Below are positions 1,599 to 42,390 of a stretch of 64,000 nt of DNA, in pieces. A program made the translations under genes and the position numbers. The DNA is taken from NCBI GenBank assembly GCA_928724745.1, contig CAKMXJ010000016.1, positions 1-64,000 on the forward strand. Direction: 5' to 3'. The stretch comes from Anthracocystis setariae. Lineage: Eukaryota; Basidiomycota; Ustilaginomycetes; Ustilaginales; Ustilaginaceae. Position 1 is the first letter of the stretch. Each line of letters starts with the position of its first letter. The notes below the pieces were generated by a model. It did no database searches and had not been told where the DNA came from. It saw only the letters and a list, made by a program, of their open reading frames with translations.

Positions 1599-4500
1599 CC
1601 GAACTGTCAGACCAACTGACCATGGCGGGCGTTACAATCAGCTTCAACAAGAAGTACAGCGTACTAATGAAGGGTCTCCGCAAGGAATATGATAACATCC
1701 GAGCACAAATCGAGGAGACCTACCGAGCACGTCGAGAAACGAGCGAAATGATCGTCCGAAGGGGCGACAACGAAATCGAGACCCTGGTTGTCGAGAGCGC
1801 CATCATTAACGAGAAGGTCGAGCTCGACAACATCGTCACTCGCCTGCGAAGCGAGGAATTACGTCTTGGCATCAACGTTCAGGGCATGCATCAGCGAACC
1901 CGGGTCGGGTCATCGGCGTATTACGCCGGACAGGAAAACAAACGTAAGGGTCAACGAAACCCGAAGCGAAACACCAAGACGAAGCCGAAAACGCCAATCG
2001 AGAAGATTACTTGTTTCAATTGCCAAGAAAAGGGGCACTACGCGAACAAATGCCCGAAACCTAAGAACCCGACGTCGGGTTCCCAGCCGAACACCAAAAC
2101 TGGTGAACCCGGGCGCGACAACGTCTACTCCGCTAGTGAGTTCACACACCCGCGATCAACAATGTGGTTAATGGACTCGGGTGCCAGTCGACACATCTGT
2201 TGTAACAAGACTCTATTCCGGGATCTCAAACTAGGCGTGTCAATGCGACCCATCTGGGTAGCAAACGAAGTTCCGGTCAAAATCGAAGGACTCGGCACAG
2301 TCGACCTCGAAGTCAATATCGGACGAGGAAAAACGAACAAGATCACACTGTCCAACGTGGCATACATACCATCCTTCGGCGTCAACCTCCTGTCCACAGG
2401 AGTAATGAGGAAGAAGGTGGAAATTGTGACAAACGATCGCGAGACAGTCGCTCGCACGACGGATGGCAGAATCACATGCAGAGGTGTCCATATTGGACCC
2501 CTCACGTATGTCGATCAAGTCGGCACCGACTTTGCCGGAATGGCGGCCGAACACGAGGCCAACACCACAAACTGGCACAAACGCCTTGGTCATCCAGGTC
2601 AAGCACGTTTGGAAGAGATTGCGAAGGTCGTTCCCCAAGTAACCCTCAATCCACGCACACCCGCGAAGTGTGAGACGTGCCAGATCGGAAAATCGCACAA
2701 ACAGCCGTTCTCTCGAAACCCGACGTCGGGTTCCACAAAACCCCTGGAACTTGTACACACCGACGTCGTGGGCCCAATGCCCGACGAAACTCCTCAAGGC
2801 CACCGATACGCTGTCACATTCATCGACGACTTCTCAAGATTCACCGTCGCTTTCCTACTCACAAGGAAGAGTGAGGTGTACGGCCACTTCTTGGAGTACA
2901 AAACCTTGATGGAAAAGCAAACCGGCCAGTTGATTAAAAGAGTCAGGTCGGACAACGGAGGCGAATACACGAGTAAAGAACTTGCAGAGCTACTTCGAGG
3001 AAATGGGATCATCCACGAACACACCGCTCCATACACGCCAGAACAGAACGGGGTTGCAGAACGAATGAATCGCACCCTGTTCGACCTAGCTCGCTGCATG
3101 ATGATCCAATCATCCTCACCGTATCATATGTGGGGAGACGCTTTCCTCCACGCGGTCTACCTCAATAACCGATTCCCAACGAAGGGCGCCGGGATGAAGA
3201 TCCCGATCCAATTGTTGCGTTCCATTACACCTGACTTCTCCCTCGCTCGAACGTTCGGATGTGCTGCTTGGGCACACGTTCCAGAGGAGAGAAGAGACAA
3301 ATTGGAGCCCCGCGCGCTGGCATGCGTCTACGTCGGCATCGCTGCAGGGACGAAGGCCTTCAAGTTATATAACGTGGCCGAAGATCGATATATTACAACG
3401 GTCCACGCAACATTCGACGAAGGGACTTTCCCCTTCTCGTATGATACCGAAAGTTCGGTGCGGTTTGCAAAAACCGACGTCGGGTTCGCGAACCCGCCCA
3501 GATTTAACACAACGACGAAGGAAATCGATATCCCCCCTCAGTCAAATCATCAAAACGCCGAACTACAGCAGAACACATCGGAAGACTCAAACAGTTGGCC
3601 CTACCTTACTCCAGAGGAAAGGGCGGCAGGAATCCAGACTCCACCTGGTTCGCCACCAAGTTCACCACGCCTGGACGCGCTCGCAGCCCTCGAAGAAACC
3701 GACGGGGTCGAAGACCCGACGTCGGGATTGGACGATTCGGACCCAATAGGGCTACTCGACGACGAACCACGAACAATCACTCAGGCTTTCCGAAGACCCG
3801 ACTGGGAATTGTGGAAACAGGCAGTAAATAGAGAACTTGCGTCGCACAAGAACAACAACACCTGGAATCTTGTGACCCCCCCGAAGGACGCAAACGTCAT
3901 CGGAAGTCGATGGGTCTTCAAGATCAAGCGAAAAAGCGATGGAACAATTGACAAGTACAAGGCTCGCTTGGTAGCACAAGGATTCGCACAAAAACACGGC
4001 ATAGATTACGACGAGACCTTCGCACCTGTCGTGAAGCTTGCGACACTCCGTCTGCTCATGATACTAAGTCTACAGATTGGATTGACTATCTACCAAATGG
4101 ATGTCGAGACCGCCTACCTCAATGGTGAAATCGACAAAGATATATACATGCGACCACCGCCTCGCGAACCCGACGCAGATCCTCACACCCCGGGTCTACT
4201 TTGCAAGCTAAACAAGTCATTGTACGGTCTCAAGCAAGCTGGTCGTACTTGGTACCAGAAAGCAGACTCAACTTTGCGGGGAATGGGTTTCAAGCGCAGT
4301 AACCACGATTCCGCGCTCTACATCAAAACCCCGACGTCGGGGTCCGAGACTCACCCGCTCGTCCTCACACTTTACGTGGATGACATTCTTATCTTTGCTC
4401 GCTCTAAACCCCTCGCCGAAAGCGTGATGAACGACCTCAGGAAGCACTTCAAGATGACGGGTGGAGAACAGCTTGACTACATTCTAGGCATTCAAGTGAA

Positions 4501-5356
4501 ACAATCGCCGGACTCCATACACTTGTCCCAAACCAGCTACATCCGACGGCTCCTCCTGACTTACGGGCTCGAATCTGCCAACATCGTACACACTCCGCTC
4601 AACCCGAGTGCCAACATAGCAGAAGGGGACCTCCTCTCCTCATCAGAACATTCCAAGTATAGGAGCATCGTCGGCCAAATCCTCTACATTGCGACATGCA
4701 CGAGACCTGACATCAGTTATGCTGTACAGAGACTCAGCCGCGAACTTGCAAACCCGCACTCTAATGCTATGGTTCAGGCTAAGCATCTGTTACGTTACCT
4801 CAAGGGAACGGAAACCCACGGGCTCGAATATAAACCCGCCGTCGGGTTTCCAATTCACGACGTGAATCTTGATTTCGGGTCCCTATTCCAGACATTCACC
4901 GACGCAGATCACGCGGGGGACACACTAACTTCGAGATCAACGTCGGGAATTGTCAACACGGTCAATACTATGCCATACAGCTGGATTTCTAAGCTACAGT
5001 CCATCATCACGGACTCTACAACATACGCCGAATATGTAGCTATGGCCGAAGCAGCGAAGGAAATCACATGGTGCCGATGGCTGGTCGAAGAACTCGGCCT
5101 GAAAGTCAAGAACCCGACGCAACTCATGGTGGATAACCGCGCGGCCATCGAACTCGCCAAGGAACCCAAATTCCACAACAGGACCAAACACTTTCGCCTC
5201 AAGTATCACATTACCCGATCATACCAAGCAGAAGGATTACTGATCGTGAAGCCAGTCTCAACAACGAACCAACTGGCTGACATTCTCACTAAGGCATTGG
5301 AAAAGAACAAAGTCCAAGTCAACCGCGAGAATCTCCACATACTTCCCACAAATTAG
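1599..5356 (+). pseudogene. copia gag-pol polyprotein, N-terminally truncated
   Basis: The frame stays open from the repeat junction to a TAG at 5,354-5,356; the first ATG (1,622) is internal to gag. Counting from it: CCHC zinc knuckle at about residues 131-144, protease DSG near 185, the GAG-pre-integrase HKRLGH and CETC motifs, integrase with the D, D and E regions, reverse transcriptase with the YVDD box, and RNase H with FTDADHAGD. The pol part reads as intact, with no stop or frameshift seen. The matching protein of the minus-strand element has about 200 more residues at the N-terminus. Without a 5' LTR this copy is probably silent unless driven from the adjacent repeat. Confidence 0.9.
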
Positions 5357-5931
5357 GAAAACCCGACGACGGGTTTCTCCTTTCATCGATTAATCATCAA
5401 GATCCGTATATGCACACCCACGACTCGACGCGCTTTCCCTGAAAAACATCAAAAACAACACAAAATATCCGAACAAGACCAACACCGAAAATAACAATAA
5501 AAGCCAACAAAATAACTGGACCCTGCATGAACACGCGACCCAAGATACAGCAACACCCTTTGGATCACAGAACCCGACGTCGGGATTACACTTCCAGCCT
5601 AAATCCACATGATTCAGCCCTCGACTCACAAAATTACAATGAATCACCACTAACACTACAAGCCACCCATATGTCACATTGCGCAATCACATCCACCGAG
5701 ATGAAACGCGGCGCATCCGACAAGACTCTCTATCGGGTCATAAGACCCGACGTCGGGCCTTCACCTCACACTGCGCCACCCTCGGAGCATGCCGAACAAA
5801 GCTTTACACCCCTAAGAACCAAAGAAGCGGATCGAAACAGAGACAAAGCACTTACGTTACTTATAAGAACCGACCTGATCACCCCTACCGACACCAACCC
5901 CAACACCACAAACACCATTTTACAGGACACG

Positions 5932-7287
5932 ATGGGAAAACGACTTTCCCAAGCAAAGAAAAACGCCCTCGCCAAGGCCAATGAGGCCAGGAGAAGGAAG
6001 TCCGCCAACGAAACGGACACTACCACCTCCTCCTCAGTCATCGCCGCCAACACAAACGATGGCGTAACCCCAATCTCAACCAACACCCAAGCCTCCCCAG
6101 CACGGGGTCAAGAAGAGGCCATGGATCTCGACGAGGGACACTCAGTTCCAGCGAACGAGAATTCTTCTCCCTCAAGCACTCGGCCCGCTGTCGCAGAAGA
6201 CATGGCTGTTGACGTCCAACCACCATTACCGCCCGCTGCAAACCAAGGCATGGCGTCGCACGACACTGGAGCAACGAGTACCAATACCACCGCTGTGCCG
6301 TCGCAGGCCAACGACGTTCCATCGCCACGGGTCGCCGTGTCTCCTCAGACCGGCGGAATCATCATCAACAACTCCCTTCGTCTCCGCAGCCGACCCCTCG
6401 CCACGTTGAGACCAGCGCCACTAACGACAACGGGTAATCACCCCGAAGAGAGAGGCCTCTTCCTCCTCAACTCCGACGACTCTCTCCGCGACGGAGACTA
6501 CGAGGTGGACCCGTTTGCCGACGAGGACGAAGACATGGACAGCAGCGAGAGGTACAGCGTCCCAGCTTGTTCCTCCAACAACAACAACAACAACCCGGCG
6601 CGAGCGATCGAGCTCGTCGAAGCGAGCATGGCAATCACCCGTCCACGGGTCGTAGGAGCTGCTGCCGCCGCCGTTGCAGCCTCAGAGGCCAATCTCGAGG
6701 CCAACGAAGTCCAACCCGCCGGCGGAACAGCCGAACACCCCCTTCCCCCGCACCTGGCATGGTCGGGGGCCATCACACCGGGGGTACCATTATCAAAGCA
6801 GAAGCGCTTTGTCGTCCCAGCCGGAGTGGTGCTCAACTCACGGCGGCACTTCACTCCACTGGGCGAACCCCTTCACCCCGACCTTATGGTCGTCAACCCG
6901 GGCTGCCAAGAGTGCCAACTCATCGGAGTGCACTGTACATTTGGCGCGGGTATCAATCATCAGGGAAAGAAGCGAGACCCCGCCCGCGGGTCTTGCGATC
7001 ATTGCATGATCATTTCGAAGCCCTGCCGTGGGCTGGGATACGGAGGGAAAAGGACGAAGAAACTGGCTACCATCGACGATCTACGAAGCAAGCTAAACGA
7101 AGCGAAAGAGATCTGCATCGATGCGATCGTGGCCTCAAGGACTGGCAAGCAAACGCCGAAGAAGTGGGACCCTTCCTACTTCATCAAACTCCTCGGCCAG
7201 GCTGAAGAACTCGTCGACAAACGCGAGGCCCCGGGCCCTCGTAACAGGTACGCGCAAGCTTCTCGTTCCGGCGCTTCGGGTCATTAG
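5932..7287 (+). CDS. copia accessory ORF (ORF3) with six-cysteine domain
   Basis: A 451-residue protein between pol and the 3' LTR. I chose the ATG at 5,932 because the MGKRLS N-terminus is shared with copy B (same length) and resembles the MARLSA start in the other family; the frame is open further upstream without a good start. The N-terminal 30 residues are very basic, the middle is low-complexity Ser/Thr/Pro/Asn with acidic patches, and the C-terminal third is conserved. That part has RFVVPAG, then C-x2-C-x5-C, a GxGxNHxG linker and C-x2-C-x5-C followed by CRGxGY. The spacing recalls metal-binding clusters such as Zn2Cys6 but does not match that family exactly. A nucleic-acid-binding role is inferred. 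I know of no named family for it. Confidence 0.75.
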   Translation: MGKRLSQAKKNALAKANEARRRKSANETDTTTSSSVIAANTNDGVTPISTNTQASPARGQEEAMDLDEGHSVPANENSSPSSTRPAVAEDMAVDVQPPLPPAANQGMASHDTGATSTNTTAVPSQANDVPSPRVAVSPQTGGIIINNSLRLRSRPLATLRPAPLTTTGNHPEERGLFLLNSDDSLRDGDYEVDPFADEDEDMDSSERYSVPACSSNNNNNNPARAIELVEASMAITRPRVVGAAAAAVAASEANLEANEVQPAGGTAEHPLPPHLAWSGAITPGVPLSKQKRFVVPAGVVLNSRRHFTPLGEPLHPDLMVVNPGCQECQLIGVHCTFGAGINHQGKKRDPARGSCDHCMIISKPCRGLGYGGKRTKKLATIDDLRSKLNEAKEICIDAIVASRTGKQTPKKWDPSYFIKLLGQAEELVDKREAPGPRNRYAQASRSGASGH

Positions 7288-7354
7288 GACCCATCATGAA
7301 ATCCGGTGCCCCGATGCGATAATGATTGACTGTGACTGAAGTGTGTGAAGTGCT

Positions 7355-7367
7355 CAACGTGGGGGGC
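7355..7367 (+). promoter_or_regulatory. Polypurine tract of copia copy A
   Basis: A G-run (GTGGGGGGC) directly precedes the LTR start TGTTGG, as expected for the plus-strand priming site of an LTR element. Copy B has GCGGGGGAC in the same place. Confidence 0.75.
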
Positions 7368-8167
7368 TGTTGGAACTTGGAATTCCACGTAAACGTCTCG
7401 CGCTTCAAGTATTTCCACCCTTCAGCCACAAACCCGACGTCGGGTTTGGCAATCCGCATGCGGGATGTTGGACTTCGCCGGATTCAGCAAGCTGCGACGC
7501 GAGTCAAATAAAATCACGGAGATTCTCACACACACGCTCAAAACATACGGTCCAAGACAGGAGGTTCGAAACCTCGTCTCAAAACCCGCGGTCGGGTTTG
7601 ATGACTCCGGATGCGTTCTCAGGAAGAAACTACGGATCCTCCCAATACGATCAGAAGGCGGACCCCACAGCGAAAGACAGGTACCGACGACTCGAGTAAG
7701 AGGATCACGCCATGTGCATCGTAACATTCCCCAAGGAACGATCAGTGCAGGCGTTGGGAAGCACCATCACGGACACAACATGTATATAAACGCCCGTTGG
7801 TCGCGATTTCGTTAATGTCTTTGGAATACATCGAATCTTTCCCCCATTTACTCTTACCATACCTTCTCTCCGACAACTCGTCGAGTAGTCATCAAAGTAC
7901 TTATAGTATTTATCGTTCAAGCTTCCTACCTCTGCGAAGACGACGTGAGCGTACGAAACCCGACGTGGATCTTTGGAATAACAACAAAGATAACGTTCGG
8001 ATATCCTAAGACTTCCGGGATTCTAACAAACCCGCAGTTCGTCAGAACCCGACGTCGGGATTGATCACCCGACGCCTACTTCCGTAAGTCACGCTTAAAA
8101 GCCATAATTAACTACTTATTCTTGGCTTTGCCGTAAGGCCGTCATTTCTCATTTGCTATCTTTCACA
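7368..8167 (+). repeat. 3' LTR of copia copy A (800 bp)
   Basis: Begins TGTTGGAAC and ends TTTCACA; the ends TGT...ACA were set by alignment with copy B (799 bp, 24,972-25,770). A TATA box (TATATAAA) lies at about 7,782. Palindromes of the family type occur at 7,430, 7,582 and 8,046, with half-sites elsewhere. No target duplication can be checked because the 5' end is missing. Confidence 0.85.
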
Positions 8168-8535
8168 AGTCTTGCATAGGCAAACAGAGGGGCCTTGTGT
8201 GTATATCATTGATGGCTCCCAATGATTGCAAACAAGGAAGCCAATGTTTGTCGACACAAGCCAGTTGGTGTGATACAAAGTCAAACACCTGGGGGCCATC
8301 CAGGCTGGGAGACAGCGCATCACATTGAATGGTTATTAGGGGATTGTCGAGAGTCTTGTGTAGGCAAACAGAGGCGCCTTGTGTGTATATCATTGATGGC
8401 TCCCAATGATTGCAAACAAGGAAGCCGATGTTTGCCGACACAAGCCAGTCGGTGTGATACAAAGTCATACACCTGGGGGCCATCCAGGCTGGGAGACGGC
8501 GCATCACATTGGCTGCCTGGTTGTATGTAGGGTTT
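8168..8535. repeat. Two direct repeats of 184 bp
   Basis: The segments around GGCTCCCAATGATTGC at 8,214 and 8,398 repeat with a period of 184 bp and few differences over about 170 bp. They lie between the LTR and the first dioxygenase gene. The next 60 bases repeat GTAGGGTTTTGCTTTGGCTTT twice with a TATAAAAT between. They may be promoter-proximal repeats of the gene at 8,924. Confidence 0.75.
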
Positions 8536-8923
8536 TGCTTTGGCTTTGGGTTATAAAATGTAGGGTTTTGCTTTGGCTTTTCCCCCTCTTTGCGTTGTTG
8601 GCATGGCTGAGCATTTGAGACATCCCGTTTCGGCTTGAACCATGTTGGCAATCAAGGAGGTGTATTTTTTAATGTTAGATTCTTCAGAATACTTGACAAC
8701 AATGATCATGTACTATAGCAGAAACTTATAGAGCAATCACAGCATATGAACCGTAGGGGGCGCCCACTGTGAAAAGAGAAAGACACGCAAACGCAAACCA
8801 AAACGCAAACACTAACCAAAGCTCAAGCAAACACGCAAACCAAAACCAAGCGCAAATCAAACGAGAACAAGAACAAGCCTGTCCTATAACAGACATTGAC
8901 TACAACACAGTACGGTTGACAAG
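8536..8923 (+). promoter_or_regulatory. Probable leader region of the dioxygenase gene
   Basis: Contains TATAAAAT at about 8,550 and, from about 8,770, a CA/AACGCAAAC-rich stretch typical of an untranslated leader. The distance from the TATA-like box to the ATG (370 bp) is long, so an unseen intron or a different start site is possible. Confidence 0.35.
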
Positions 8924-22314: not shown

Positions 22315-22323
22315 CCGAGGCCA

Positions 22324-22971: not shown

Positions 22972-23536
22972 GAAAACCCGACGACGGGTTTCTTCTTCCA
23001 CCGATCAATCATCGAGATCCGTACATGCACACTCACGATTCGGCGCGAAAAACATCAAAACCACAAAAACAAAGACCAACACAGGCAAAACAGTAATAAA
23101 AGGCCTACAAAATAAACCCTGCATGAGGACACGACCCAAGACACATCAATACTCATCGGATTGCAAAACCCGACGTCGGGATTTCACATTTAGCACGAGC
23201 CCTCAAGATTTAGGACCGGACTAACAAAATTACAAATAAATTACCGCTAACACCACAGTCACTTATATGTCACATTGCGCAATCACATCCACCGAGATGA
23301 AACGCGGTGCATCCGACAACACTCTCTATCGGGTCATAAGACCCGACAACTGGACTCTACAACATGCTGCATCACTTGCGGAACGCCCCGAACAAAGCAT
23401 TACGCCACAAAGGATTGGAGTTGCGGCGGAAATCAATAAAAGGACCCTCACCACACTTACCGATCTCATAACAACGACCTCCTTAACCACCATCCCTAAC
23501 TCCAACCCCATACCAATCGACACTCAGCAACCAATC

Positions 23537-24892
23537 ATGGGAAAAAGGCTCTCAAAAGCAAAGAGAGAAGCCCTCGCCAAGGCCACCGAGGCCAGGCGAA
23601 GAAGAACCACCGAAGTTAACGCTGCCGTCGCCAACGTCGCCGATAACGCCAACTCCTCGACCAACGACACAGACAACATCGACAACGACGCCGACACACC
23701 CTCCGACGCAACCGTCGCTCAAGCCTCCCCTCAAGAGGGCCAAGAAGAGGCAATGGACGTCGAGGAAGAGCTCCCAGCTCCGACAGACGAGGATCCATCA
23801 CCACCAAGTACTCGGCCCACTGTCACACATGACATGGTCATCGATAATCACCTTCCTCCAACATCGCCGCCGTCTACCAACCCCGCCTCGATACCACAAG
23901 TCGCTGAATCGACCCAGAACAGCGCTACCGTCCCTTCCAACGAAGGCAACGGTACTACCACCTCGTCGACCGCGCCCCGTGTGGCCGGCCACTCGCTACG
24001 CCTCCGCAGCCGACCTCTTCCTGCGTTAAGGCCAGCGACTGCCACCACCGGCGATGACGAGTCCCCCGAAGCGAGATCTCTCTTTCTCTATTCGGACGAC
24101 TCCCTCATCGACGGTGACTTCGAACTAGATCCCGCCTACGACCGTGGTAACGAGGAACTGGAGCGGAGCACCTCTGCCCGCCGAACAAACGGACCCAATC
24201 CCTCCCGAGCAATCGAGCTCGTGGAGTCGACCACCTCGCCCTCTCACCGCCGCATCGTTGGAGCAGCCGCCAACGCCGTCGCTGCCTCCAAAGCCAACCT
24301 CGAGGCCGACGAAGCCCAACCGGCCGGCGGAACGAGCGAACACCCCCTCCCCTCGCACCTGGCATGGTCGGGGGCTATCACTCCGGGGGTTCCACTATCG
24401 AAGCAGAAGCGCTTCGTTGTCCCAGCGGGAGTGGTGCTGAACTCACGAAGGCACTTCACTCCGCTGGGCCAGACTCCTCATCACGGCCTCGTGATCATGA
24501 CACCCGGCTGCCAAGAGTGCGAACTCATTGGCGTGCATTGTTCCTTTGGCGCCGGGGTCAATCACCAAGGGAAGAAGCGAGACCCCGCCCGCGGGTCTTG
24601 CGACCACTGCATGGTCATCTCAAAACCATGTCGAGGACTGGGGTACGAAGGGAAGAAAACCAGGAAAATGATGCTCATTGAGGAACTCCGAGGCAGAGTC
24701 GACGAAGCTAAGGAGGTATGCCTCAATACGATCGTGGCCACGAGAACAGGGAAAACACCCCCGAAGAAGTGGGATCCCTCGTTCTTCATCAAAATCTTGG
24801 GGCAGGTCGAAGAGCTCATCGAGAAGCGCGAGGCTCCCGGCCCTCGAAATAGGTTCGCTCAAGCATCCGGCTCTGGTACCTCGGGTCCTTAA
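23537..24892 (+). CDS. copia accessory ORF (ORF3), copy B
   Basis: 451 residues from MGKRLSKAK, the same length as the copy A version. The central low-complexity part has diverged (NANSSTNDTD-like runs), while the C-terminal cysteine domain, RFVVPAG and GPRNRFAQ tail are conserved. Both CxxC triads are intact. It has stayed open although the rest of the element is truncated, so decay is recent or the ORF is maintained. A perfect CGGGTC-N5-GACCCG inverted repeat straddles the stop codon. Confidence 0.72.
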   Translation: MGKRLSKAKREALAKATEARRRRTTEVNAAVANVADNANSSTNDTDNIDNDADTPSDATVAQASPQEGQEEAMDVEEELPAPTDEDPSPPSTRPTVTHDMVIDNHLPPTSPPSTNPASIPQVAESTQNSATVPSNEGNGTTTSSTAPRVAGHSLRLRSRPLPALRPATATTGDDESPEARSLFLYSDDSLIDGDFELDPAYDRGNEELERSTSARRTNGPNPSRAIELVESTTSPSHRRIVGAAANAVAASKANLEADEAQPAGGTSEHPLPSHLAWSGAITPGVPLSKQKRFVVPAGVVLNSRRHFTPLGQTPHHGLVIMTPGCQECELIGVHCSFGAGVNHQGKKRDPARGSCDHCMVISKPCRGLGYEGKKTRKMMLIEELRGRVDEAKEVCLNTIVATRTGKTPPKKWDPSFFIKILGQVEELIEKREAPGPRNRFAQASGSGTSGP

Positions 24893-24971
24893 GACCCGTT
24901 GTGAATTCCATTACTCTGTTACGAAATAATTGACTGTGCCTGATGTCTGTGAAGTGTTCGACGCGGGGGAC

Positions 24972-25770
24972 TGTTGGAACGCAGAGTTCCTTATTCCGTC
25001 TCTCACTAAGAGCATTTCACCATCGGGCCACAAAACCCGACGTCGGGTTTTGTAACCCGCGTTCGGGTTTGTACCCTCAGCCGGATTTGGACAACCACGA
25101 CCCCCTTTACGAGAAAACACCCAAAACCCACACACGCGTCCAAGACACACGATTCAAGACAGAAGGTTCGAAACATAGTCTTAAGACCCGCGGTCGGGTT
25201 TTATGATTCCGGATGCGTCCTCAAGAAGAAACCACGAACTCTCCCTATACGACCAGAAGGGAGATCCCACAGCAAAAGGTTGGCACCAACGACCAAGTGA
25301 GTGGATTACGCTACAGACATCGCGAGATCCACCAAGGAACGTTCAGTACAAACGTAAGGAAACAACATTACGGACTCAACATGTATATAAAACACCTTTT
25401 TGTCGTGACTCGTTAGTGTCTCCGGAAGTCATCGAATCTTTTCCCCATTTACTCTTATCATACCTTCTCTCCGACAACTCGTCGAAGTAGTCATCAAAGT
25501 ACTTACAGTATTTATCGTTCAAGCTTCCTACCTCTGCGAAGACGACGTGAGCGTACGAAACCCGACGTGGATCTTTGGAATAACAACAAAGATAACGTTC
25601 GGATATCCTAAGACTTCCGGGATTCTAACAAACCCGCAGTTTGTCAGAACCCGACGTCGGGATTGATCACCCGACGCCTACTTCCGTAAGTCACGCTCAA
25701 AAGCCATAATTAACTACTTATTCTTGGCTTTGCCGTAAGGCCGTCATTCCTCATTTGCTATTCTCTTACA
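24972..25770 (+). repeat. 3' LTR of copia copy B (799 bp)
   Basis: Begins TGTTGGAACG after the polypurine tract GCGGGGGAC and ends CTCTTACA. TATATAAAA at about 25,383. Palindromes at about 25,036 (20 bp, perfect) and 25,648, with an imperfect one at 25,053 and one at 25,184. Confidence 0.85.
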
Positions 25771-25914
25771 AGTACTGGTAGACGTTGCCGGGGCGTCACT
25801 GGCGCCGGACGATGAACCGGAGGGGGTATTGGCATCGGCTGGCGTTTTGGCGAGCCGAGCCGATCGACGCGAGGGAATGGCAGGAGCAGGCGAGGGTTTC
25901 TTCTTGGGCGCCAT
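25771..25914 (-). pseudogene. N-terminal fragment of a gag-like protein cut by copia copy B
   Basis: From an ATG at 25,914 the minus strand reads MAPKKKPSPAPAIPSRRSARLAK and a Ser/Thr/Ala-rich tail for 48 residues, then runs into the copy B LTR. A basic start with RRSARLA is common in fungal Gypsy-type gag proteins. It may be the start of another retroelement or of a DNA-binding host protein; only the start is left. Confidence 0.4.
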
Positions 25915-28620: not shown

Positions 28621-28727
28621 TTCCTGGCATTTCAAAATTCAGCACAGTTTTCAAATGGACCGTCTCATTTTCTCAGTGACACATCCATACAACAATTTTT
28701 TGCCCATCAAACCCTAACCCTACGGCA
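28621..28727. repeat. Second copy of the subterminal-like segment with CCCTAA tract
   Basis: Repeats 838-943 with few changes, including the last GACCGTC motif and TTTTTTGCCCATCAAACCCTAACCC. The tract then joins a truncated, inverted copia LTR. Confidence 0.65.
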
Positions 28728-29488
28728 AAGCCAAAAATAAAGGGTTAATCATGGCTTTTGAGCGTGACTTACGGAAGTAGGCGTCGGGTGATCAACCCTG
28801 ACGTCAGGTTCTGACAAACTGCAGGTTTGTTAGAATTCCGGAAGTCTTAAGTTATCCGAACATTGTCTTTGTTATTATTCCAAAGACCCTATGTTGGGTT
28901 ACAGACGTTCACGTTGTTTTTGCAGAGGTAGGAAGCTTGAACAATGAATACTATTGGTACTTTGATGACTACTTGACAAGTTGTTGGAGAGAAGGTATGA
29001 TAAGAGTAAATGGGGAAAAGATTCGATAGATTCCAAGAGCACTAACGGGTCATGACAAGGGAACACTTATATACACGTTGGGACTACTAGAAGACGCTTC
29101 CCAGCATTTGTACTGAGTGTTCCTTGATGAATGCTACAGGGTCCATAGCGTGAACTTCTTGCTCGGTTGCTTGAGGCTTTCTCGCTTTTGTGTAGTGTGT
29201 ATCTTGGTCAGGTCGGAGCACTTCTGAATTCTCCCAGGTGACGCATCTGGAATTGTGAAACCCGACTGCGGGTCTTGAGATAATGTCTCGAACCTCCTGT
29301 CTTGAATTGTGTGTCTTGGGCGCGTGTGTGGGTTTTGGGTGGTTTCTTGGGAGAAGCATCGTGGTTGTCCAAATCCGGCTAAGGGTGCAAATCCGCACGC
29401 GGGTTGCAAAACCCAACATTGGGTTTTGTGGCCCAATAGTGAAATGCTCTAAGTGGGAGACGGAACATGGAACTTCTGCGTTCCAACA
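28728..29488 (-). repeat. Decayed solo copia LTR (copy C), truncated at its 3' end
   Basis: Reverse complement of the copy A/B LTR, from TGTTGGAACG (ending at 29,488) to the TTGGCTTTGCCGTA part. The last 35 or so bases are replaced by the telomere-like tract. Palindromes survive in mutated form, for example AACCTGACGTCAGGGTT at about 28,795 (minus strand) and AAACCCAATGTTGGGTTT at about 29,410, mostly through CG to TG/CA changes. It is the last repeat before core genes. Confidence 0.8.
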
Positions 29489-34464: not shown

Positions 34465-34466
34465 TA

Positions 34467-34575: not shown

Positions 34576-35495
34576 TGTGAGATTCTACGTGCGTCTAATC
34601 ACTATTGCGTCGTGGGTAGACGTTCGAAGGTGATTGCAAACACGCAAGGGCGCGTGTTTGCCGCGTCTCTTGATTGACTTCAAGCTGCGATCTTGGAAAT
34701 GTGTTTGGGATCACTAAGTCAATTATCAATCCTTTTCGGCAATAGAGTCAGCAAGACCGAAGTGAGGTTGACCGCACTCGTCCGAATGGGCGCTGTAGGC
34801 TAGGAAGCTTGGTAGGTTACTACGTGAGGGACAAACACGCAAGCCTGCGTGTTGGTATGCTTGATCGTATGTTAGGAACACACTTTGTTAGTTGATGATT
34901 CGATGATATTACAATCCCTGTAGGGTGTCTTGCGGCCTCTATATATACATGTGGCGCTGATTCTCAAATACGGCAAAGTGACATCTCTTGTCGCTGTAGC
35001 CGTACTTCATAACGTCCCATGTCGACTGAGATTTGTGCTTCTATACACGCGGTCTTGCGTGTGTCCTCGCCATTCCGGGACTATTCCCTAACGGTCTATT
35101 AGCAGCTTACCTCTAATTCGTTCGGGGCAACGTCGTCCGCAAATGGGGTTCACCCTTGATTATGAGGGTGACCCATTATGACCCTTGAGTCTTGTTCGTA
35201 TCATAACCCCAACTTGAGCTGATTGGTTCGTCGAGTAGGGGATCGCGAGGAGCTGTATATTCAACACGCAACCACGCGTGTGAGGTGTCCAGCTAGTCTT
35301 GATGTCCACGACGGCGCGGAACCAGGGTTTACCCTTCTTCCTGAAGTGGGGTCCGAATATTATTCCCTATTATTTCGCGCGCGTGCTATTTCGGTTCTTT
35401 ACTCTCTGCGTTCAAACACGCGGGCCTGCGTGTTTAGTGCTGTCAAGTAAAATACTCCAAGTATGAGATGACTTTCGGATCTGTGTGATCCAACA
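34576..35495 (-). repeat. 3' LTR of the complete copia element (920 bp)
   Basis: In element orientation starts TGTTGGATC and ends GAATCTCACA. Palindromes at 34,638-34,659, 34,834-34,853, 35,045-35,062, 35,264-35,281 and 35,414-35,435. A TATATATAG-type box lies near 34,940 on the minus strand. Confidence 0.95.
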
Positions 35496-35560
35496 GCCCC
35501 TCTCATCGAGTACTTCACTCACACAGCACAGGCAGGGCACGCAAGGGAACGGGTTAGTAT

Positions 35561-36742
35561 TTACAATCGAGAACCAGAAGCAGCGCTAGGATCTTGAACG
35601 CGCGAGCGCTTCTTGCGAAGGGGGCCTTCTCGCTTCTCGAGCGTCTTTCGTACGGTGCCAGCGATCCTAATGATATTCGTCGGGTCATAGGATCGTGGCG
35701 TCGGCCTGTTGAGAGCTTTGGCCGTGATGGCCTCCTTAGCCGCCTCCTCGAGTTCCTCCAGCTGTTCCAGTGCTTGTTCGAATAGCGTAACTTTCTTCGT
35801 TCGGTACCCAGTGAAGCCACCTCCCCGACAGCGCTTTCCCGCTACAATGCAATGATCACATGCGTGAGACGTCGGGACCCTTGGACGCCCCTTGTGGTTC
35901 TTGCCGACGCCGTACGTGCAGTAGACGCCGGCCTCGACGCAAGGGGTACATCCTGGGGTCGAGACAGTGAAGCCGTCCTCGATCGTATCCGTGAGCTTTG
36001 GGAAGTCAGACACGCCGGCTCTGACCGTCCCAGCCGGGACCACGAATCTATGTTGTTTGTCGAGGGCTTTCGACTCGTCGAGGGGTCCAGACCAGGCCTG
36101 GTCGTTCGATAGAGGGTGGAGGATACTTCCACCTGCCGGCTGCGGCGTCGAGGCAGGCCGGGGGCGGAAGTGGTGAGGGAGGGCGGCCGAGAGGTCCGCC
36201 GTAATCGAGTTTAATGGACGACGGCGTATGGGAGCTGGCCCATCATCGTCGTCCTCGTCGTCGTCGTTGTCGGCAGGAGGGATGGCCATGTCATCATCCT
36301 CACCTGTGCGAGGGCTTGGAGGCACCTCGGCTCCGTCACTGATCCTGAGGAACAAAGGCCGGAGCCTAGTGACGTTGCTGTTGCTGGTCATCGGCGACTC
36401 AGCAACTGCCTCGCTTGATCGTCCAGAGGCTTGAGTGATGTCGCCCCCACTTGATGCGGCCGGGGGCTGAGCGATAGGAGTGGTCATGCCAGGCGTGGCA
36501 GAGGACCTCGATGTTGAAGGTGATACCTCGCCGTCGTTGGCGGGCGAGGGAGCGGCGTGGGATTGACCCGTACCATTGGTAGCAGGGGTCTCGTCGACGT
36601 CCATGTTTTCTTCGCTGGCGGGGGTCGGGGAAGGGGTCGCTGGCGAAGGTTGGGCGACTAAGGCGTTGGAGGCGTGGAGGCGTTTGCGAGCCTCTGTTGC
36701 TTTCTTGATGGCAGCACGTTGTTTTGCGCTGAGTCTCGCCAT
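35561..36742 (-). CDS. copia accessory ORF (ORF3), second family
   Basis: 393 residues from MARLSAKQR at 36,742; the frame is open upstream without an ATG. It has the same plan as the ORF3 of copies A and B: basic N-terminus, Ser/Thr/Pro-rich and acidic middle (a D/E run near residue 170), RFVVPAG, and the two triads PGCTPC-x5-C and CDHC-x5-C with GxGKNHKG between. A helical Glu/Leu-rich segment (QALEQLEELEEAAKEA) and a basic tail follow. Outside the cysteine domain similarity to copies A and B is low, as expected if it evolves with the family-specific palindromes. A role in binding element DNA or RNA is inference. Confidence 0.75.
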   Translation of the reverse strand: MARLSAKQRAAIKKATEARKRLHASNALVAQPSPATPSPTPASEENMDVDETPATNGTGQSHAAPSPANDGEVSPSTSRSSATPGMTTPIAQPPAASSGGDITQASGRSSEAVAESPMTSNSNVTRLRPLFLRISDGAEVPPSPRTGEDDDMAIPPADNDDDEDDDDGPAPIRRRPLNSITADLSAALPHHFRPRPASTPQPAGGSILHPLSNDQAWSGPLDESKALDKQHRFVVPAGTVRAGVSDFPKLTDTIEDGFTVSTPGCTPCVEAGVYCTYGVGKNHKGRPRVPTSHACDHCIVAGKRCRGGGFTGYRTKKVTLFEQALEQLEELEEAAKEAITAKALNRPTPRSYDPTNIIRIAGTVRKTLEKREGPLRKKRSRVQDPSAASGSRL

Positions 36743-37179
36743 GGTGATGGGTGGCGACAGTGGTTGTGTGGAAGAGATGGTGGTATTAACGAACGGACTG
36801 GTAGAGGCGTTCAGTTGACTTCTGTAGTTGCGCAAGCCACGGTGATAATCTCTTTGTTCGCGGCTATTGAGTGTGTGACTGAGTCCGGTATGGATACTCA
36901 GCGTCGAGTGTTGGTGATTGCGCCTCCACGCTTTGTGAGGCGGATGCGCCGATATGAAGTCTGTGGCGTTGGCGCAGGGTTTGGGGCTTGCGTGTGGCTT
37001 TAGTCTTGAACACGCGAGGTTGTGTTTTTGGTGCCTGGCTGTCGGCTTAGATATTTTACGTGTTTTTTGTTGATGGGGGGTGCCCCTCTGATTTCTTGGA
37101 TTTTCTTGTTTGGTCGGATCTGTCAAGGTCGAGTCGGGTCGGGAAAAATATGTACAAGGCAAATACGCGACGTCGAGTG

Positions 37180-40100
37180 TTACTCCACGACGTTGTTTGT
37201 CGGAGTTTTGATGTTTAATGCTTCGCGGTTTGCCTGAGTCTTGTTCTTCTCCAAAGCTTTCGTTAGCATATCGGCCAATTGGTCGCTAGTGGACACGGCT
37301 TTCACCGTCAAGACATTGTTAGCTTGGTATTCTCGTGTAATGTGATACTTAAGCCTGAAGTGTTTAGTTCGATTGTGGAATCTTGACTCTTTTGCGAGTT
37401 CGATTGCTGCTCGGTTGTCGACCATGAGCTGTGTGGGTGTGTCAACTTTGAGTCCCATTTCGGATGCGATCCAGCGTGTCCAGATGATCTCCTTTGCAGC
37501 TTCGGCCATGGCTACGTACTCGGCATAGGTCGTTGAGTCTGTGATGATGGACTGAAGTTTTGATAACCAGCTGTATGGCATTCCTGCGACGGTGTTAACA
37601 ATCCCCGAAGTTGATCGCGAAGTAATAGTGTCCCCCGCGTGATCTGCGTCGGTGTATGTCTGCAAATACTGTCCAAGGTCAACACGCGTGGTTGCGGGTG
37701 TGAGGTCAGCTATGCGTGTGTAACGTAGTCCGTGTGAGGCGGTCCCTTTGAGGTATCGGAGTAAATGTTTGGCCTGCACCATGGCGTTGTGGTGCGGTCG
37801 GGAAAGCTCACGGCTGAGTTTCTGGACGGCATAAGCAATGTCGGGGCGTGTGCATGTTGCAATGTAAAGGACCTGGCCGACGAGGCTTCGGTATGTGGAG
37901 TGCTCTATAGGTGAAAGAGGATCTCCTCCTTTGAGATCGTGAGTTGGATTGATGGGTGTATGCGTTATGTTTGCACACGCAAGGCCGTAGGTTTCCAGTA
38001 GACGGTGTATGTAACTGGTTTGGGCAAGGTGTATAGACTGTGGAGACTGGGTGACTTGGATTCCCAGGATGTAGTCGAGCGGGTCTCCGCCAGTCATTTT
38101 GAAGTGCTTTCGGAGTTCATCCATAACACTCTTCGCCAACTCGTGTGTTTTGGCGAAGATTAAGATGTCGTCGACGTACAGAGTTAAGATGATGGGTTGA
38201 TCTTCAACACGCGGGCCCGCGTGTTTGAAGTAGAGGGCGGAGTCGTGTTCACTGCGCTTAAATCCCATTTCTCGGAGCGTGGTGTCGGCCTTGTGGTACC
38301 ATGTTCGACCTGCCTGCTTAAGTCCATAAAGCGACTTATTTAGCTTGCACACTTGACCTTGCGGGGTCCCTCGAGACTCTTCGATCGTGGGGGGTGGCCT
38401 CATGTATAAGTCTACGTCGATCTCCCCGTTTAAGTAGGCTGTGGCCACGTCCATTTGGTAGATACTCCATCCCATTTGTAATGAGATGATCATGAGTAAT
38501 CGCAATGTGGACAGCTTTACTACTGGAGCGAAGGTCTTGTCGTAATCAATGCCATGCTTTTGAGCGAAGCCTTGTGCTACAAGACGAGCCTTGTACTTAT
38601 CTATCGATCCGTCGGACTTGCGTTTTACTTTAAAGACCCATCTGCTCCCAATGATGTTGGCCCCGTTAGGTGGCGTTACCAAACGCCATGTATCGTTCTC
38701 GCTGTGAGAGTTGAGTTCTTTATCGATGGCTTCTTTCCATAACGACCAGTCTGGGCGTTGGGAGGCTTGCATGATTGTTCGAGGTTCGTCGTCGAGTAAC
38801 CCAACGCTGTCTGGTTCGTCAACACGCAGCGTCGCGTGCTCCAACTCGTCATTGAATTCTTGAATTGCGAGGGCTTGCAGACGCGGCGACGTTGGTGGGG
38901 AACCTGGCGGGGTTGTCAGTCCTTGTTCTCTCTCTTGTTCGGTGAGGTACGGCCACCTGCTAAGGCTGCCATCGTTCCCTTCGTCATTTCCTTGATTTGA
39001 AGTCTGTGTGAGCGGGGCAGGCTGTTGTTCCGAACTCCAGACGTCGCGTGTTGGCAAACCAAGTTGTTTCTCGGGAGAACCTTTGTAAGGGAAAGACTCT
39101 TCGTCGAAGGTTGCATGCACCTGCGTCAGGTACCTTTTCTCGACGGGATTGTACAACTTATAAGCCTTAGTTCCTGCCGCAATCCCTAGGTAGACACATG
39201 AGACAGCTCTGTCATCGAGTGCGGACCTCCTCTCCGTTGGAATGTGAGCATAAGCTGCACAACCAAAAGTTCGTACAAGAGAGAGGTCTGGCATCTTGTC
39301 GTACAAGACTTTGATCGGGATCTTGTCACCATTGCCTTTCGTCGGTAATCTGTTGTTCAAGTAGGTTGCATGAAGTAAAGCATCGCCCCATAGTGTGTCA
39401 GGAGCATGGGATTGTATCAACAAGCAACGTACAGTGTTGAACAATGTCCTGTTCATCCTTTCCGCAACGCCGTTTTGTTCAGGTGCGAATGGGGATGTGA
39501 ATTCATGCAGGATTCCGTGGGAAGTGAGGAAGGTATCCATTTCAATGCTTGTGTATTCTCCTCCGTTGTCGGATCTGAGCTTCTTGAGTGGGTATCCGGT
39601 TTGCTTCTCCATGGTCGTCTTATATTCCTGAAGGCAGCCGAACACCTCACTCTTGCGAGTGATCAGGTACACCATTGTGTGTCGAGAAAAATCGTCGATG
39701 AATGTGACCGCGTACTTGTATCCTTGAGGAGTTTCGGTGGGAATTGGTCCTTTGACGTCCGTGTGGATCAAGCCAAGCGGATGTTCAACACGCGGCGTTG
39801 CGTGCTTGAACGGTTGCTTGTGGGACTTGGCAATCTCGCACGTTTCGCAGAGTTGGCGGTTTTTCTTTGCACTCAACGTGACTGTTGGGACTTCTTTTGC
39901 GATTTCTTCCAGGCGTCGCTCTCCAGGGTGGCCGAGACGCTTATGCCATCGATCAGGCTCCTTGTGTTCTGCGGCTAGCCCTGCGAAGTCAATACCTGCT
40001 TGATCAACGTACGTGAGTGGTCCAATATGTACACCCCTGCAAGTGATGCGGCCACTCTTTGTCCTTGCTATGGTTTCTTTATCGTTGGTGGTGATCTCCG

Positions 40101-41466
40101 CCTTCTTCCTCATCACTCCTGTGGATAGGAGGTTGACATTGAAGGATGGGATGTAAGCTACGTTCGTTAGCATGATCTTGTTGACGTCTCCTTGTCCGAC
40201 GTTGACATCTAGGTGCACTGTGCCAACGCCCTCGACCTGGACGGGTACGTCGTTGGCCACCCAGATGGGTTTCATTGATACACCTGTACGGAGGTCTGTG
40301 AAAAGAGAACGATTGCAACAGATATGCCTGCTAGCTCCTGAGTCCATGAGCCACATAGTTGAACGCGGATGGGTAAACTCGCTAACGGAGTAGGCGTTTT
40401 CATTGTTGGCGTTGCCGTCTTTTACGCAACCTTGCGTGTTCTCCTGCTTCGTTTTCTTTGGACATTTATTCTGGTAGTGCCCCTTTTCGTTGCAATTGAA
40501 GCAGGTTATTTCTTCGATGGGAGTTCTTTTCCTACGACGTTGCGTGTTTGGCCTCTTCGTCTTCTTTCCGTCGCTGGCGAAGTAGGCTGACTGGTTTTGC
40601 TTTGTTTGTTGGTCCAGACCGTGTGAGTGGAGTCCGAGGCGTAGTTCTTCGCCACGCAACCTTGTGACTATGGAGTCAAACTCTACTTTCTCGTCGATGT
40701 GTGCCTTTGCCATCGTGAACCTCTCGTTTTCATCCCCTTCGCGGTGGATAATCATCTGAGTTTGCTCTCGGCGAGCTCTGTACGTTTCCATGATTTGCGA
40801 CGCGATGTTCTCGTACTCTTTGCGTAGTCCCTTCATGAGGACGCTGTACTTCTTGTGATGACTTATGTTATAGCCTGCCAACGTCAGTTGTTCGGCAAGC
40901 TGCTTGATTCTGCCAACGAAGCCGTCGATGGTCCGCTTTTCTTGTCTGAGACTGTTGAACTCGGTCTCCATTTCCTCGAGTTGCCATCGCATTGACTTGG
41001 CAAATCGGTCTTCGAGGGTGATCCAGATGGTCCTGGCATCCTCGAGATCGCTGATCGTGTGCTTTATGTCGATTGACATGCAGCTTCGAAGCATTCCGCA
41101 TGCTGTGAGATTGGCGTTGAGCCATTCGAGGTACGTGGGGTCGGACTCCGGAGGTTTGGGGAAGATCCCTTTGATGATTCCGTAGACGCGGATGCCCTTT
41201 TGCATAAGAACATCTATGGTTCTGTCCTTCCACGTGTAGTAGTCTTTCGCTTGCTCGAGCTTTGGCAAGCAAAGTTTCGTTTGATCAATCTCCGTACCCA
41301 TTGTAAACGCAACGTTGCGGGTTTGTACCGTAGGGGGGAGAGTTAGAGATAGGGTAGGTTCTTCGTCGTCTCTACTGGGTGTTCCAGTAATCGAATCGGA
41401 GCGACGGGTTCGCGATCGGGTTCCTTTGTAGCTACCTTCCGAGTTTCCAGTAGGCTTTGGGCTCAT
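37180..41466 (-). CDS. copia gag-pol polyprotein, full length
   Basis: 1,428 residues in one frame, no stop or frameshift. Order: copia-type gag (residues about 60-220), CCHC knuckle CFNCNEKGHYQNKC near 320, aspartic protease (MDSGASRH) near 375, GAG-pre-integrase HKRLGH...CETC, integrase with TDVKGP, SDNGGEY and EQNGVAERMN, reverse transcriptase with YQMDVATAYL and YVDD, RNase H with YTDADHAGD and ending near 1,400. The ATG lies only four bases inside the LTR border (LTR-GGTTATGAG...), so the start codon sits in the presumed primer-binding site. Gag and pol share one frame, so no frameshift separates them. Confidence 0.95.
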   Translation of the reverse strand: MSPKPTGNSEGSYKGTRSRTRRSDSITGTPSRDDEEPTLSLTLPPTVQTRNVAFTMGTEIDQTKLCLPKLEQAKDYYTWKDRTIDVLMQKGIRVYGIIKGIFPKPPESDPTYLEWLNANLTACGMLRSCMSIDIKHTISDLEDARTIWITLEDRFAKSMRWQLEEMETEFNSLRQEKRTIDGFVGRIKQLAEQLTLAGYNISHHKKYSVLMKGLRKEYENIASQIMETYRARREQTQMIIHREGDENERFTMAKAHIDEKVEFDSIVTRLRGEELRLGLHSHGLDQQTKQNQSAYFASDGKKTKRPNTQRRRKRTPIEEITCFNCNEKGHYQNKCPKKTKQENTQGCVKDGNANNENAYSVSEFTHPRSTMWLMDSGASRHICCNRSLFTDLRTGVSMKPIWVANDVPVQVEGVGTVHLDVNVGQGDVNKIMLTNVAYIPSFNVNLLSTGVMRKKAEITTNDKETIARTKSGRITCRGVHIGPLTYVDQAGIDFAGLAAEHKEPDRWHKRLGHPGERRLEEIAKEVPTVTLSAKKNRQLCETCEIAKSHKQPFKHATPRVEHPLGLIHTDVKGPIPTETPQGYKYAVTFIDDFSRHTMVYLITRKSEVFGCLQEYKTTMEKQTGYPLKKLRSDNGGEYTSIEMDTFLTSHGILHEFTSPFAPEQNGVAERMNRTLFNTVRCLLIQSHAPDTLWGDALLHATYLNNRLPTKGNGDKIPIKVLYDKMPDLSLVRTFGCAAYAHIPTERRSALDDRAVSCVYLGIAAGTKAYKLYNPVEKRYLTQVHATFDEESFPYKGSPEKQLGLPTRDVWSSEQQPAPLTQTSNQGNDEGNDGSLSRWPYLTEQEREQGLTTPPGSPPTSPRLQALAIQEFNDELEHATLRVDEPDSVGLLDDEPRTIMQASQRPDWSLWKEAIDKELNSHSENDTWRLVTPPNGANIIGSRWVFKVKRKSDGSIDKYKARLVAQGFAQKHGIDYDKTFAPVVKLSTLRLLMIISLQMGWSIYQMDVATAYLNGEIDVDLYMRPPPTIEESRGTPQGQVCKLNKSLYGLKQAGRTWYHKADTTLREMGFKRSEHDSALYFKHAGPRVEDQPIILTLYVDDILIFAKTHELAKSVMDELRKHFKMTGGDPLDYILGIQVTQSPQSIHLAQTSYIHRLLETYGLACANITHTPINPTHDLKGGDPLSPIEHSTYRSLVGQVLYIATCTRPDIAYAVQKLSRELSRPHHNAMVQAKHLLRYLKGTASHGLRYTRIADLTPATTRVDLGQYLQTYTDADHAGDTITSRSTSGIVNTVAGMPYSWLSKLQSIITDSTTYAEYVAMAEAAKEIIWTRWIASEMGLKVDTPTQLMVDNRAAIELAKESRFHNRTKHFRLKYHITREYQANNVLTVKAVSTSDQLADMLTKALEKNKTQANREALNIKTPTNNVVE

Positions 41467-41470
41467 AACC

Positions 41471-42390
41471 TGTGAGATTCTACGTGCGTCTAATCACTAT
41501 TGCGTCGTGGGTAGACGTTCGAAGGTGATTGCAAACACGCAAGGGCGCGTGTTTGCCGCGTCTCTTGATTGACTTCAAGCTGCGATCTTGGAAATGTGTT
41601 TGGGATCACTAAGTCAATTATCAATCCTTTTCGGCAATAGAGTCAGCAAGACCGAAGTGAGGTTGACCGCACTCGTCCGAATGGGCGCTGTAGGCTAGGA
41701 AGCTTGGTAGGTTACTACGTGAGGGACAAACACGCAAGCCTGCGTGTTGGTATGCTTGATCGTATGTTAGGAACACACTTTGTTAGTTGATGATTCGATG
41801 ATATTACAATCCCTGTAGGGTGTCTTGCGGCCTCTATATATACATGTGGCGCTGATTCTCAAATACGGCAAAGTGACATCTCTTGTCGCTGTAGCCGTAC
41901 TTCATAACGTCCCATGTCGACTGAGATTTGTGCTTCTATACACGCGGTCTTGCGTGTGTCCTCGCCATTCCGGGACTATTCCCTAACGGTCTATTAGCAG
42001 CTTACCTCTAATTCGTTCGGGGCAACGTCGTCCGCAAATGGGGTTCACCCTTGATTATGAGGGTGACCCATTATGACCCTTGAGTCTTGTTCGTATCATA
42101 ACCCCAACTTGAGCTGATTGGTTCGTCGAGTAGGGGATCGCGAGGAGCTGTATATTCAACACGCAACCACGCGTGTGAGGTGTCCAGCTAGTCTTGATGT
42201 CCACGACGGCGCGGAACCAGGGTTTACCCTTCTTCCTGAAGTGGGGTCCGAATATTATTCCCTATTATTTCGCGCGCGTGCTATTTCGGTTCTTTACTCT
42301 CTGCGTTCAAACACGCGGGCCTGCGTGTTTAGTGCTGTCAAGTAAAATACTCCAAGTATGAGATGACTTTCGGATCTGTGTGATCCAACA
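41471..42390 (-). repeat. 5' LTR of the complete copia element (920 bp)
   Basis: Identical by eye to the 3' LTR. It faces away from the phosphomannomutase gene. Confidence 0.95.

Follow-up and report, generated by a model that had tools for sequence, protein, structure and literature searches.

Class-specific palindromes at shared positions in copia retrotransposons of Anthracocystis setariae and a candidate element-encoded reader

Why would related retrotransposons hold different palindromic words at the same places? The question is raised by a window of 64,000 nucleotides from Anthracocystis setariae (assembly GCA_928724745.1, contig CAKMXJ010000016.1, positions 1 to 64,000), in which copia elements A and B carry the palindrome AACCCG-N4-CGGGTT and the minus-strand element C carries AACACGC-N6-GCGTGTT. 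An earlier note, made from the letters of the window, had placed these palindromes at seven aligned positions in gag-pol and several times in each long terminal repeat (LTR), and had proposed that they are recognized by a factor co-evolving with the element. We followed this up in the window and in the one 21.47-Mb genome, of a single species, to which the window belongs, and consider it likely that the sites are bound by the product of a third open reading frame (ORF3), located between pol and the 3′ LTR.

Matches to ORF3 of element C in its own genome number 69. We scanned 30 ORF3 loci with up to 1.5 kb of flanking sequence, together with further stretches, about a dozen ORF3 loci lying outside this set; repeated entries were dropped (L001, which is element C; L021, which is element A; and L012, which overlaps L005). 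The ORF3 sequences form four classes: gamma (elements A and B) and alpha (element C), with the words given above, a third class, beta, with the word AACAYTC-N6-GARTGTT, and a fourth class, delta, with the word TACCG-N4-CGGTA, comprising 15 loci (L031-L045) of a more distant copia family whose pol is 46% identical to that of element C.

Palindrome positions in pol and in the LTRs

The gamma word occurs in 10 exact copies in the window and the alpha word in 7, each against a mean of 0.00 over 100 dinucleotide shuffles. With up to two mismatches allowed there are 25 gamma sites (14 in element A, 8 in element B and 3 in a solo LTR at 28718-29488) and 16 alpha sites, all within element C, and none of either kind outside the copia elements and the solo LTR in the whole 64 kb. 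The sites are spaced some 150 to 1,600 bp apart along the element, in LTRs and coding regions alike (Table 1). All seven paired gag-pol sites proposed earlier exist and fall at matching pol residues; their pairing stands with the reservation that many of them are imperfect (three of the seven in element A, six of the seven in element C) and that the element C sites at 40421 and 39033, with three mismatches each, are too weak to stand alone. That each LTR holds several palindromes is likewise borne out, with five in each LTR of element C and four in that of element A.

In the residue numbering of the element C pol protein, the gamma sites lie at 287, 503, 754, 825, 1030, 1198 and 1369 and the alpha sites at 291, 503, 754, 825, 1030, 1205 and 1373, while beta sites with at most two mismatches lie at 255, 503, 825, 1030, 1205 and just past 1365, and beta sites with three mismatches at 287, 298, 765 and elsewhere. 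Five pol sites of element C have at most two mismatches, and each is no more than 8 residues away from an element A site (P 5e-6, the lowest value that 200,000 random uniform placements can give); with three mismatches allowed this is true of seven out of eight, one further site at the start codon being left out. Between beta and gamma, five of six pol sites agree to the same tolerance (P 1.5e-5). The placements behind these values are uniform, a lenient null if only linkers can hold sites. The encoded protein gives way at the same places, as the earlier note had it in saying that it is forced to differ there: in 7-residue windows, A and C are 17% identical at six sites and 67% in all (P 5e-5, again a floor), while for beta and C the values are 37% (five sites) and 70% (P 0.0025). 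Within element A the gamma word is moreover read in two codon phases, as NPTSG at 2066 and 2717 and as KPAVG at 4833, and selection therefore acts on the nucleic acid.

The LTRs tell a similar story. Offsets are alignment-free, the first base of TGTTGG serving as origin, and two loci in which no LTR start was found (L017 and L026) were left out. Sites lie at 62, 214, 433, 643 and 838 in alpha (element C), at 65, 202, 438, 653 and 850 in beta (L009), and at 63, 83, 214 and 677 (element B) or 64, 84, 216 and 679 (element A) in gamma. The alpha and beta offsets agree with P 4e-5 between LTRs that give no blastn match below E 0.01, and the places have thus outlived the sequence around them. Over the first 760 bases of the LTR, conservation within a class is higher in half-site columns than in the remaining ones (0.94 versus 0.74 in gamma, 0.93 versus 0.73 in alpha, 0.96 versus 0.90 in beta), the observed value being reached by 27, 3 and 10 of 759 circular shifts, respectively.

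One word at many places per element could also arise from selfish palindromic mini-inserts without function, or from gene conversion of a repeated word. Comparison with delta pol disfavours insertion of a palindromic mini-element, in that no length difference of palindrome size is seen (at most one residue at 503, delta being three residues shorter at 1030 and three longer at 825); further, the words differ by class yet keep their places, and their half-sites resist decay. We regard this origin as extremely improbable.

Palindrome words and ORF3 classes across the genome

Exact words were found at 141 (gamma), 68 (alpha) and 100 (beta) places in the genome, and the reversed control patterns at none. 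Exact sites within the loci are almost exclusively of the own class: 35 own-class and no other in 11 gamma loci, 19 own-class and one beta-type in 7 alpha loci, and 37 own-class (two of them counted twice through the overlap of L009 and L014) and no other in 13 beta loci. Each of these 31 loci holds at least one exact own-class site, so that close relatives in this genome do not lack the palindromes, and mixed types within one element are nearly absent, with one exact off-class site among some 90 and a few with one mismatch. The exact exception is a beta-type site in alpha-type L005, recurring in the overlapping L012; at its place the alpha-type L006, L007 and L008 have beta-type sites with one mismatch. 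Further one-mismatch off-class sites are beta-type ones in L012 (pol 1057) and L030 and two alpha-type ones in L024 past the end of its gamma LTR, and a single exact gamma site in the delta stretch L032 is part of an overlapped gamma LTR. The alpha exceptions, together with sites having one AACACTC half, look like alpha-beta intermediates.

The sole locus without sites is L004 (C11:152266-156258), which we rejected as an element lacking sites because it is an alpha-type ORF3 relic without pol and without most of the LTR. Its ORF3 is 72% identical from residue 61 on, in an open frame, and its C-terminal ratio of nonsynonymous to synonymous substitution rates (dN/dS) against element C is 0.08; L004 is either a relic or an adopted gene.

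Neither the three other class words nor perfect-arm palindromes, when sought in delta, revealed palindromes there; the delta word emerged from a word count followed by one-mismatch searches. With at most one mismatch it occurs 14, 15, 13 and 9 times in four of the 15 delta loci (0.05-0.3 in shuffles) and not at all in four alpha, beta and gamma pieces. Because these very elements had supplied the word, a one-mismatch ranking of all 5-base half-sites served as the unbiased check: the class word came first in delta (14 copies), gamma (13) and alpha (10), the best of three control blocks reaching 6, 5 and 5, and the beta word (5 copies) did not stand out.

That a single nucleus contains four words, each going with one ORF3 class, argues against a shared host reader. 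The sites might instead be bound by several host zinc-cluster factors to which the families have adapted: fungal zinc clusters commonly bind CCG-N4-CGG, and Ty1 has internal regulatory sites. This would need four factors, one per family, matching the ORF3 classes, and the words keep largely to the elements, in the window without exception. Of the first 50 listed places for each of three classes, 40, 48 and 47 have a piece of their own class no more than 1.3 kb away, and none is near only another class; for 15 of these 150 places no element piece lies that close, and at least 3 of the 15 fall in the gamma element L047/L027. We find a set of host factors quite unlikely.

ORF3 as candidate reader of duplex DNA

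ORF3 of element C carries an acidic stretch and a domain of the pattern C-x2-C-x6-C-x19-C-x2-C-x6-C. The six cysteines are invariant in all 21 aligned domains from the four classes, an aspartate, an arginine and several glycines are kept as well, and the linker between the cysteine triplets measures 19 residues, or 16 in delta. The stretch separating cysteines 2 and 3, which in Gal4-type proteins touches DNA, differs from class to class: VEAGVY in alpha, ETRRIL in beta, QLIGVH in gamma and MKKGVI in delta, as read from one member each. The gamma and delta cores contain CCG-N4-CGG, which we take to be the everted repeat of Leu3-type zinc clusters; the alpha and beta words do not. Purifying selection acts on ORF3, whose C-terminal domain is conserved and whose upstream part changes faster, dN/dS being 0.04-0.13 over the last 160 codons and 0.17-0.46 upstream (11 pairs; synonymous divergence often exceeds 1, so these values are rough). 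The alpha-type loci L005-L008 are 90-93% identical to element C (35561-41301) in pol and 61-64% in the matched part of ORF3, and their LTRs are alike in patches, a pattern that reflects either fast change of ORF3 or exchange. One scan of viral contigs returned no relatives.

As the palindromes lie in element RNA or can be copied into it, each could fold, and they might be RNA hairpins serving packaging, dimerization or RNA stability rather than DNA sites. When half-sites were shuffled among distinct sites (35 gamma, 29 alpha, 33 beta), pairing proved no better than for independent halves in gamma and alpha (P 0.90 and 0.17), and G-U pairs were not enriched in any of the three classes. Beta halves do pair more than their shuffles (192 versus 181.6, P 0.003), and yet beta has recurrent sites in which both halves are consensus and non-complementary (AACACTC with GAATGTT). 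A second line of evidence comes from the flanks of strong sites, scanned for each class's own word at 36 pooled sites from one element per class: weak copies recur at 20 and 21 bp (mean z 0.70 and 0.68), 40 bp (0.50) and 59-60 bp (0.35 and 0.28), with a best pooled period of 19.5 bp (P 0.0025, the floor of 400 draws). By class, phasing is significant in gamma (P 0.005) and alpha (P 0.0125), and the best single offset is 20 or 21 bp in three of the four classes and 40 bp in beta. Spacings of about two, four and six DNA turns suggest duplex DNA with a protein array on one face. After half-site shuffling the hairpin reading is disfavoured, less clearly so for beta, and we hold it to be improbable.

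From the sites, their class specificity, their positions, the pooled phasing and the selection on ORF3 we infer the following, which we judge the likely explanation: the elements would carry a code for recognizing themselves. ORF3 would be a dimeric, zinc-cluster-like DNA-binding protein, which the helix behind the six cysteines could hold together, and it would bind duplex DNA at the palindromes of its own class throughout LTRs and coding regions; from strong sites, the bound protein may spread along the DNA over the weaker copies phased at about two helical turns. As a likely outcome, element chromatin would stay open or transcription would be driven, as a self-encoded anti-silencing or activation system in which related families do not cross-activate. 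When ORF3 specificity shifts, sites would follow singly at their old positions, replacing the linker peptides encoded there, and sites and protein would thus change together. The co-evolving factor of the earlier note finds support here, in that four ORF3 classes accompany four palindromes and ORF3 is the putative binder.

Several observations weigh against this explanation. As to positions, the gamma LTR offsets (three sites, with 83 left out) fit alpha or beta weakly (P 0.017-0.045), and in some alpha-like and gamma LTRs one site is displaced, by at most about 90 bp (790 in L005 and 748 in L007 for 838; 585 in L016 and 661 in L030 for 677). Delta matches only two of ten pol sites (near 754 and 1197), about one being expected, so that the positions appear inherited within alpha, beta and gamma rather than universal; the claim that place is conserved while sequence switches as a set holds for these three classes in pol and fails for delta, whose sites mostly lie elsewhere. 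As to ORF3, Gal4-type domains have a shorter linker between the cysteine triplets, and Pfam Zn_clus (PF00172) has weak matches in 17 of 21 members, with a best E of 0.016 and with the displayed scores, 11.1-12.3 bits, under the 21-bit cut-off, for which reason we call ORF3 zinc-cluster-like and do not file it as Zn2Cys6. A sequence search of the PDB gave no convincing relative, one ribosomal protein appearing at E 0.44. AlphaFold models, for which the input was only three window proteins, are poor, with mean predicted local distance difference test (pLDDT) values of 52 and 60, within which the long helix after the six-cysteine domain reaches 72-84. With these low-confidence models Foldseek gave no match below E 0.001, and a second structure aligner covered mainly helical residues 107-177, with no zinc cluster among the matches listed; these comparisons speak neither way on the fold. 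As to the tie between site and reader, the pol class equals the ORF3 class in all 21 elements in which both were read (34 pol matches, paired by eye), so that the link rests on four clades rather than on many independent switches, and sequence comparison of elements whose classes never separate leaves a link to ORF3 in particular unproved. Phasing, finally, is not significant in beta (P 0.12) or delta (P 0.16) taken alone, the fitted period of 19.5 bp is slightly under two DNA turns, and the excess pairing of beta half-sites belongs here also.

ORF3 could bind the same sites to another end, such as copy-number repression, guiding or protection of complementary DNA, target-site immunity or tethering. 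Sites scattered over the entire element, including its coding parts, look more like whole-genome marking than like a promoter, and the delta word contains ACCG-N4-CGGT, the papillomavirus E2 site; the LTR sites and the acidic stretch of ORF3 fit activation equally. We think such an end rather unlikely, noting that it shares the binding step with the preferred explanation and that the two overlap in probability. More tentatively, and as one joint proposition, the arrangement may amount to a protein-coat code in which an oligomerizing zinc-cluster-like protein of each family coats its own DNA against silencing by way of palindromes phased at about two turns, sites and reader drifting as a set while positions stay, with at least four mutually insulated codes per nucleus.

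Genomic setting, known systems and meaning

Element C is a Ty1/copia LTR retrotransposon, with integrase before reverse transcriptase, LTRs and a target duplication. Its two LTRs (34576-35495 and 41471-42390) are identical, the 5-bp duplication CAACC is read directly, and the gag-pol frame contains gag, zf-CCHC, rve (570-671) and RVT_2 (933-1182) domains. The remaining elements and all sites are collected in Table 1.

Table 1. Copia elements, reading frames and palindrome sites in the window (sites given by one number are start positions; palindromes have no strand)
Feature	Position	Strand	Class	Remarks
Element A, 5′-truncated	1595..8170	+	gamma	gag-pol to 5356, ORF3 5443-7287, 3′ LTR 7368-8160
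Palindrome	2066..2081	none	gamma	element A pol 287, exact
Palindrome	2717..2732	none	gamma	element A pol 503, exact
Palindrome	3471..3486	none	gamma	element A pol 754, 1 mismatch
Palindrome	3713..3728	none	gamma	element A pol 825, 2 mismatches
Palindrome	4328..4343	none	gamma	element A pol 1030, 2 mismatches, symmetric
Palindrome	4833..4848	none	gamma	element A pol 1198, exact; codon phase unlike 2066 and 2717
Palindrome	5360..5375	none	gamma	exact, just 3′ of element A pol stop (1369)
ORF3 open frame, element A	5443..7287	+	gamma	
Palindrome	5571..5586	none	gamma	1 mismatch, downstream of pol in element A
Weak sites	6636 and 6977	none	gamma	inside element A ORF3 frame, 2 mismatches each
Palindromes, element A LTR	7431, 7451, 7583, 8046; span 7431..8061	none	gamma	first two 20 bp apart
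Element B, 3′ fragment	22316..25773	+	gamma	pol end, ORF3 23240-24892, LTR 24997-25761
Sites, element B	22448, 22975, 23167, 24582, 25034, 25054, 25185, 25648		gamma	at most 2 mismatches
Solo LTR	28718..29488	-	gamma	
Sites, solo LTR	29259, 29390, 29410		gamma	1-2 mismatches; further, more decayed sites besides
Element C, complete copia	34576..42390	-	alpha	CAACC target duplication at flanks
Palindromes, element C 3′ LTR	34639, 34834, 35044, 35263, 35415; span 34639..35434		alpha	n = 5
ORF3, element C	35561..36742	-	alpha	393 aa from in-frame ATG; six-cysteine domain, then predicted long helix
Palindrome	37009..37028	none	alpha	between pol stop and ORF3, 2 mismatches
Palindrome	37162..37181	none	alpha	pol stop (1373), 2 mismatches; left half AACACTC beta-like
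gag-pol frame, element C	37180-41493	-	alpha	protein taken from 41301
Palindrome	37681..37700	none	alpha	pol 1205, ahead of RNase H motif, 2 mismatches
Palindrome	38206..38225	none	alpha	pol 1030, reverse transcriptase ahead of LTLYVDD, exact
Palindrome	38821..38840	none	alpha	pol 825, ahead of GLLDDEPRTI, 1 mismatch
Weak site	39033..39052	none	alpha	pol 754, behind integrase, 3 mismatches
Palindrome	39787..39806	none	alpha	pol 503, behind CETC..SHKQPF, 1 mismatch
Weak site	40421..40440	none	alpha	pol 291, behind zinc knuckle, 3 mismatches
Palindromes, element C 5′ LTR	41534, 41729, 41939, 42158, 42310; span 41534..42329		alpha	n = 5

The solo LTR has a CpG observed/expected ratio of 0.78, versus 1.43 and 1.37 in the LTRs of A and B, and some of its palindromes contain changes of CG to CA or TG, unlike those of A and B. 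The CpG loss in this older copy, a single LTR, would fit methylation of silent copies. A 600-bp repeat occurs three times at about 99% identity (960-1598, 17910-18514 and 27705-28344), one copy adjoining the truncated 5′ end of element A, and a 160-bp duplication (95%) lies directly 3′ of the element A LTR at 8168-8511. On the minus strand at 11786-16663, some 12 kb from the contig start, a frame of 1625 amino acids with OrsD and DEAD/helicase-C domains is possibly a subtelomeric helicase gene; telomere-like CCCTAA words occur near 941. Beside it lie a plus-strand frame at 8900-10030 with a match to TET/JBP oxygenase that is weak and below cut-off (E 0.0015) and a minus-strand frame at 10333-11307 with no domain match, and a plus-strand frame of 722 amino acids at 19321-21489, between copies of the 600-bp repeat, has an OTU-type cysteine protease domain.

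By analogy, the nearest known system would be VANC/VANDAL anti-silencing. VANC proteins of Arabidopsis VANDAL transposons are sequence-specific and act on motifs of their own element; these motifs vary among related elements and evolve in step with the protein (PMC5735166, Hosaka 2017; PMC10398659, Sasaki 2023), and the VANDAL motif YAGTATTAY is mainly non-coding and spreads by tandem repeats (PMC5735166). As in the system proposed here, a short motif is dense in its own element, differs in related ones and accompanies an element-encoded protein. VANC belongs to a plant DNA transposon with motifs described as mainly non-coding tandem arrays, whereas here a fungal LTR retrotransposon combines a six-cysteine protein with mostly isolated, position-conserved palindromes, seven of them in pol or at its end.

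Zn2Cys6 regulators such as Gal4 and Leu3 share with ORF3 the two C-x2-C-x6-C motifs, the helix that follows and, for two classes, the everted CCG-N4-CGG core; ORF3 differs in its linker of 19 (16 in delta) residues, in having no Pfam match above cut-off among those displayed, and in being retrotransposon-encoded with at least 10 sites per element. Papillomavirus E2 resembles the proposed ORF3 in being a genome-encoded dimer on ACCG-N4-CGGT palindromes of its own genome. E2 has an unrelated fold and is not known to have the six-cysteine motif, and its sites lie mainly in the control region. Regulatory DNA sites in both LTR and coding sequence are found, as here, in foamy virus (protein Tas) and in Ty1; Ty1 uses host factors, and Tas is not known to have a six-cysteine domain or a palindrome set over the whole element. 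Among the papers listed on Zn2Cys6 proteins and retrotransposons, on VANC and on Ustilago hordei copia, none describes such a system, and palindrom, zinc and Zn2 are absent from the main text of PMC9603552.

It is an old open question how a DNA-binding protein can change jointly with the many sites that it binds. In the three related families described here, the sites of an element, some ten or more, occupy shared positions and differ as a set, and, the presumed reader being encoded by the element itself, the path of joint change can be followed; the alpha and beta half-sites, AACACGC and AACACTC, are one base apart, and alpha elements hold sites of mixed halves. Judging from sequence, one genome offers four candidate reader-site pairs. 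If the explanation is true, anti-silencing of the VANC kind would extend to fungi and to LTR retrotransposons, and a DNA code would be able to override protein sequence in the linkers of pol, reverse transcriptase included.

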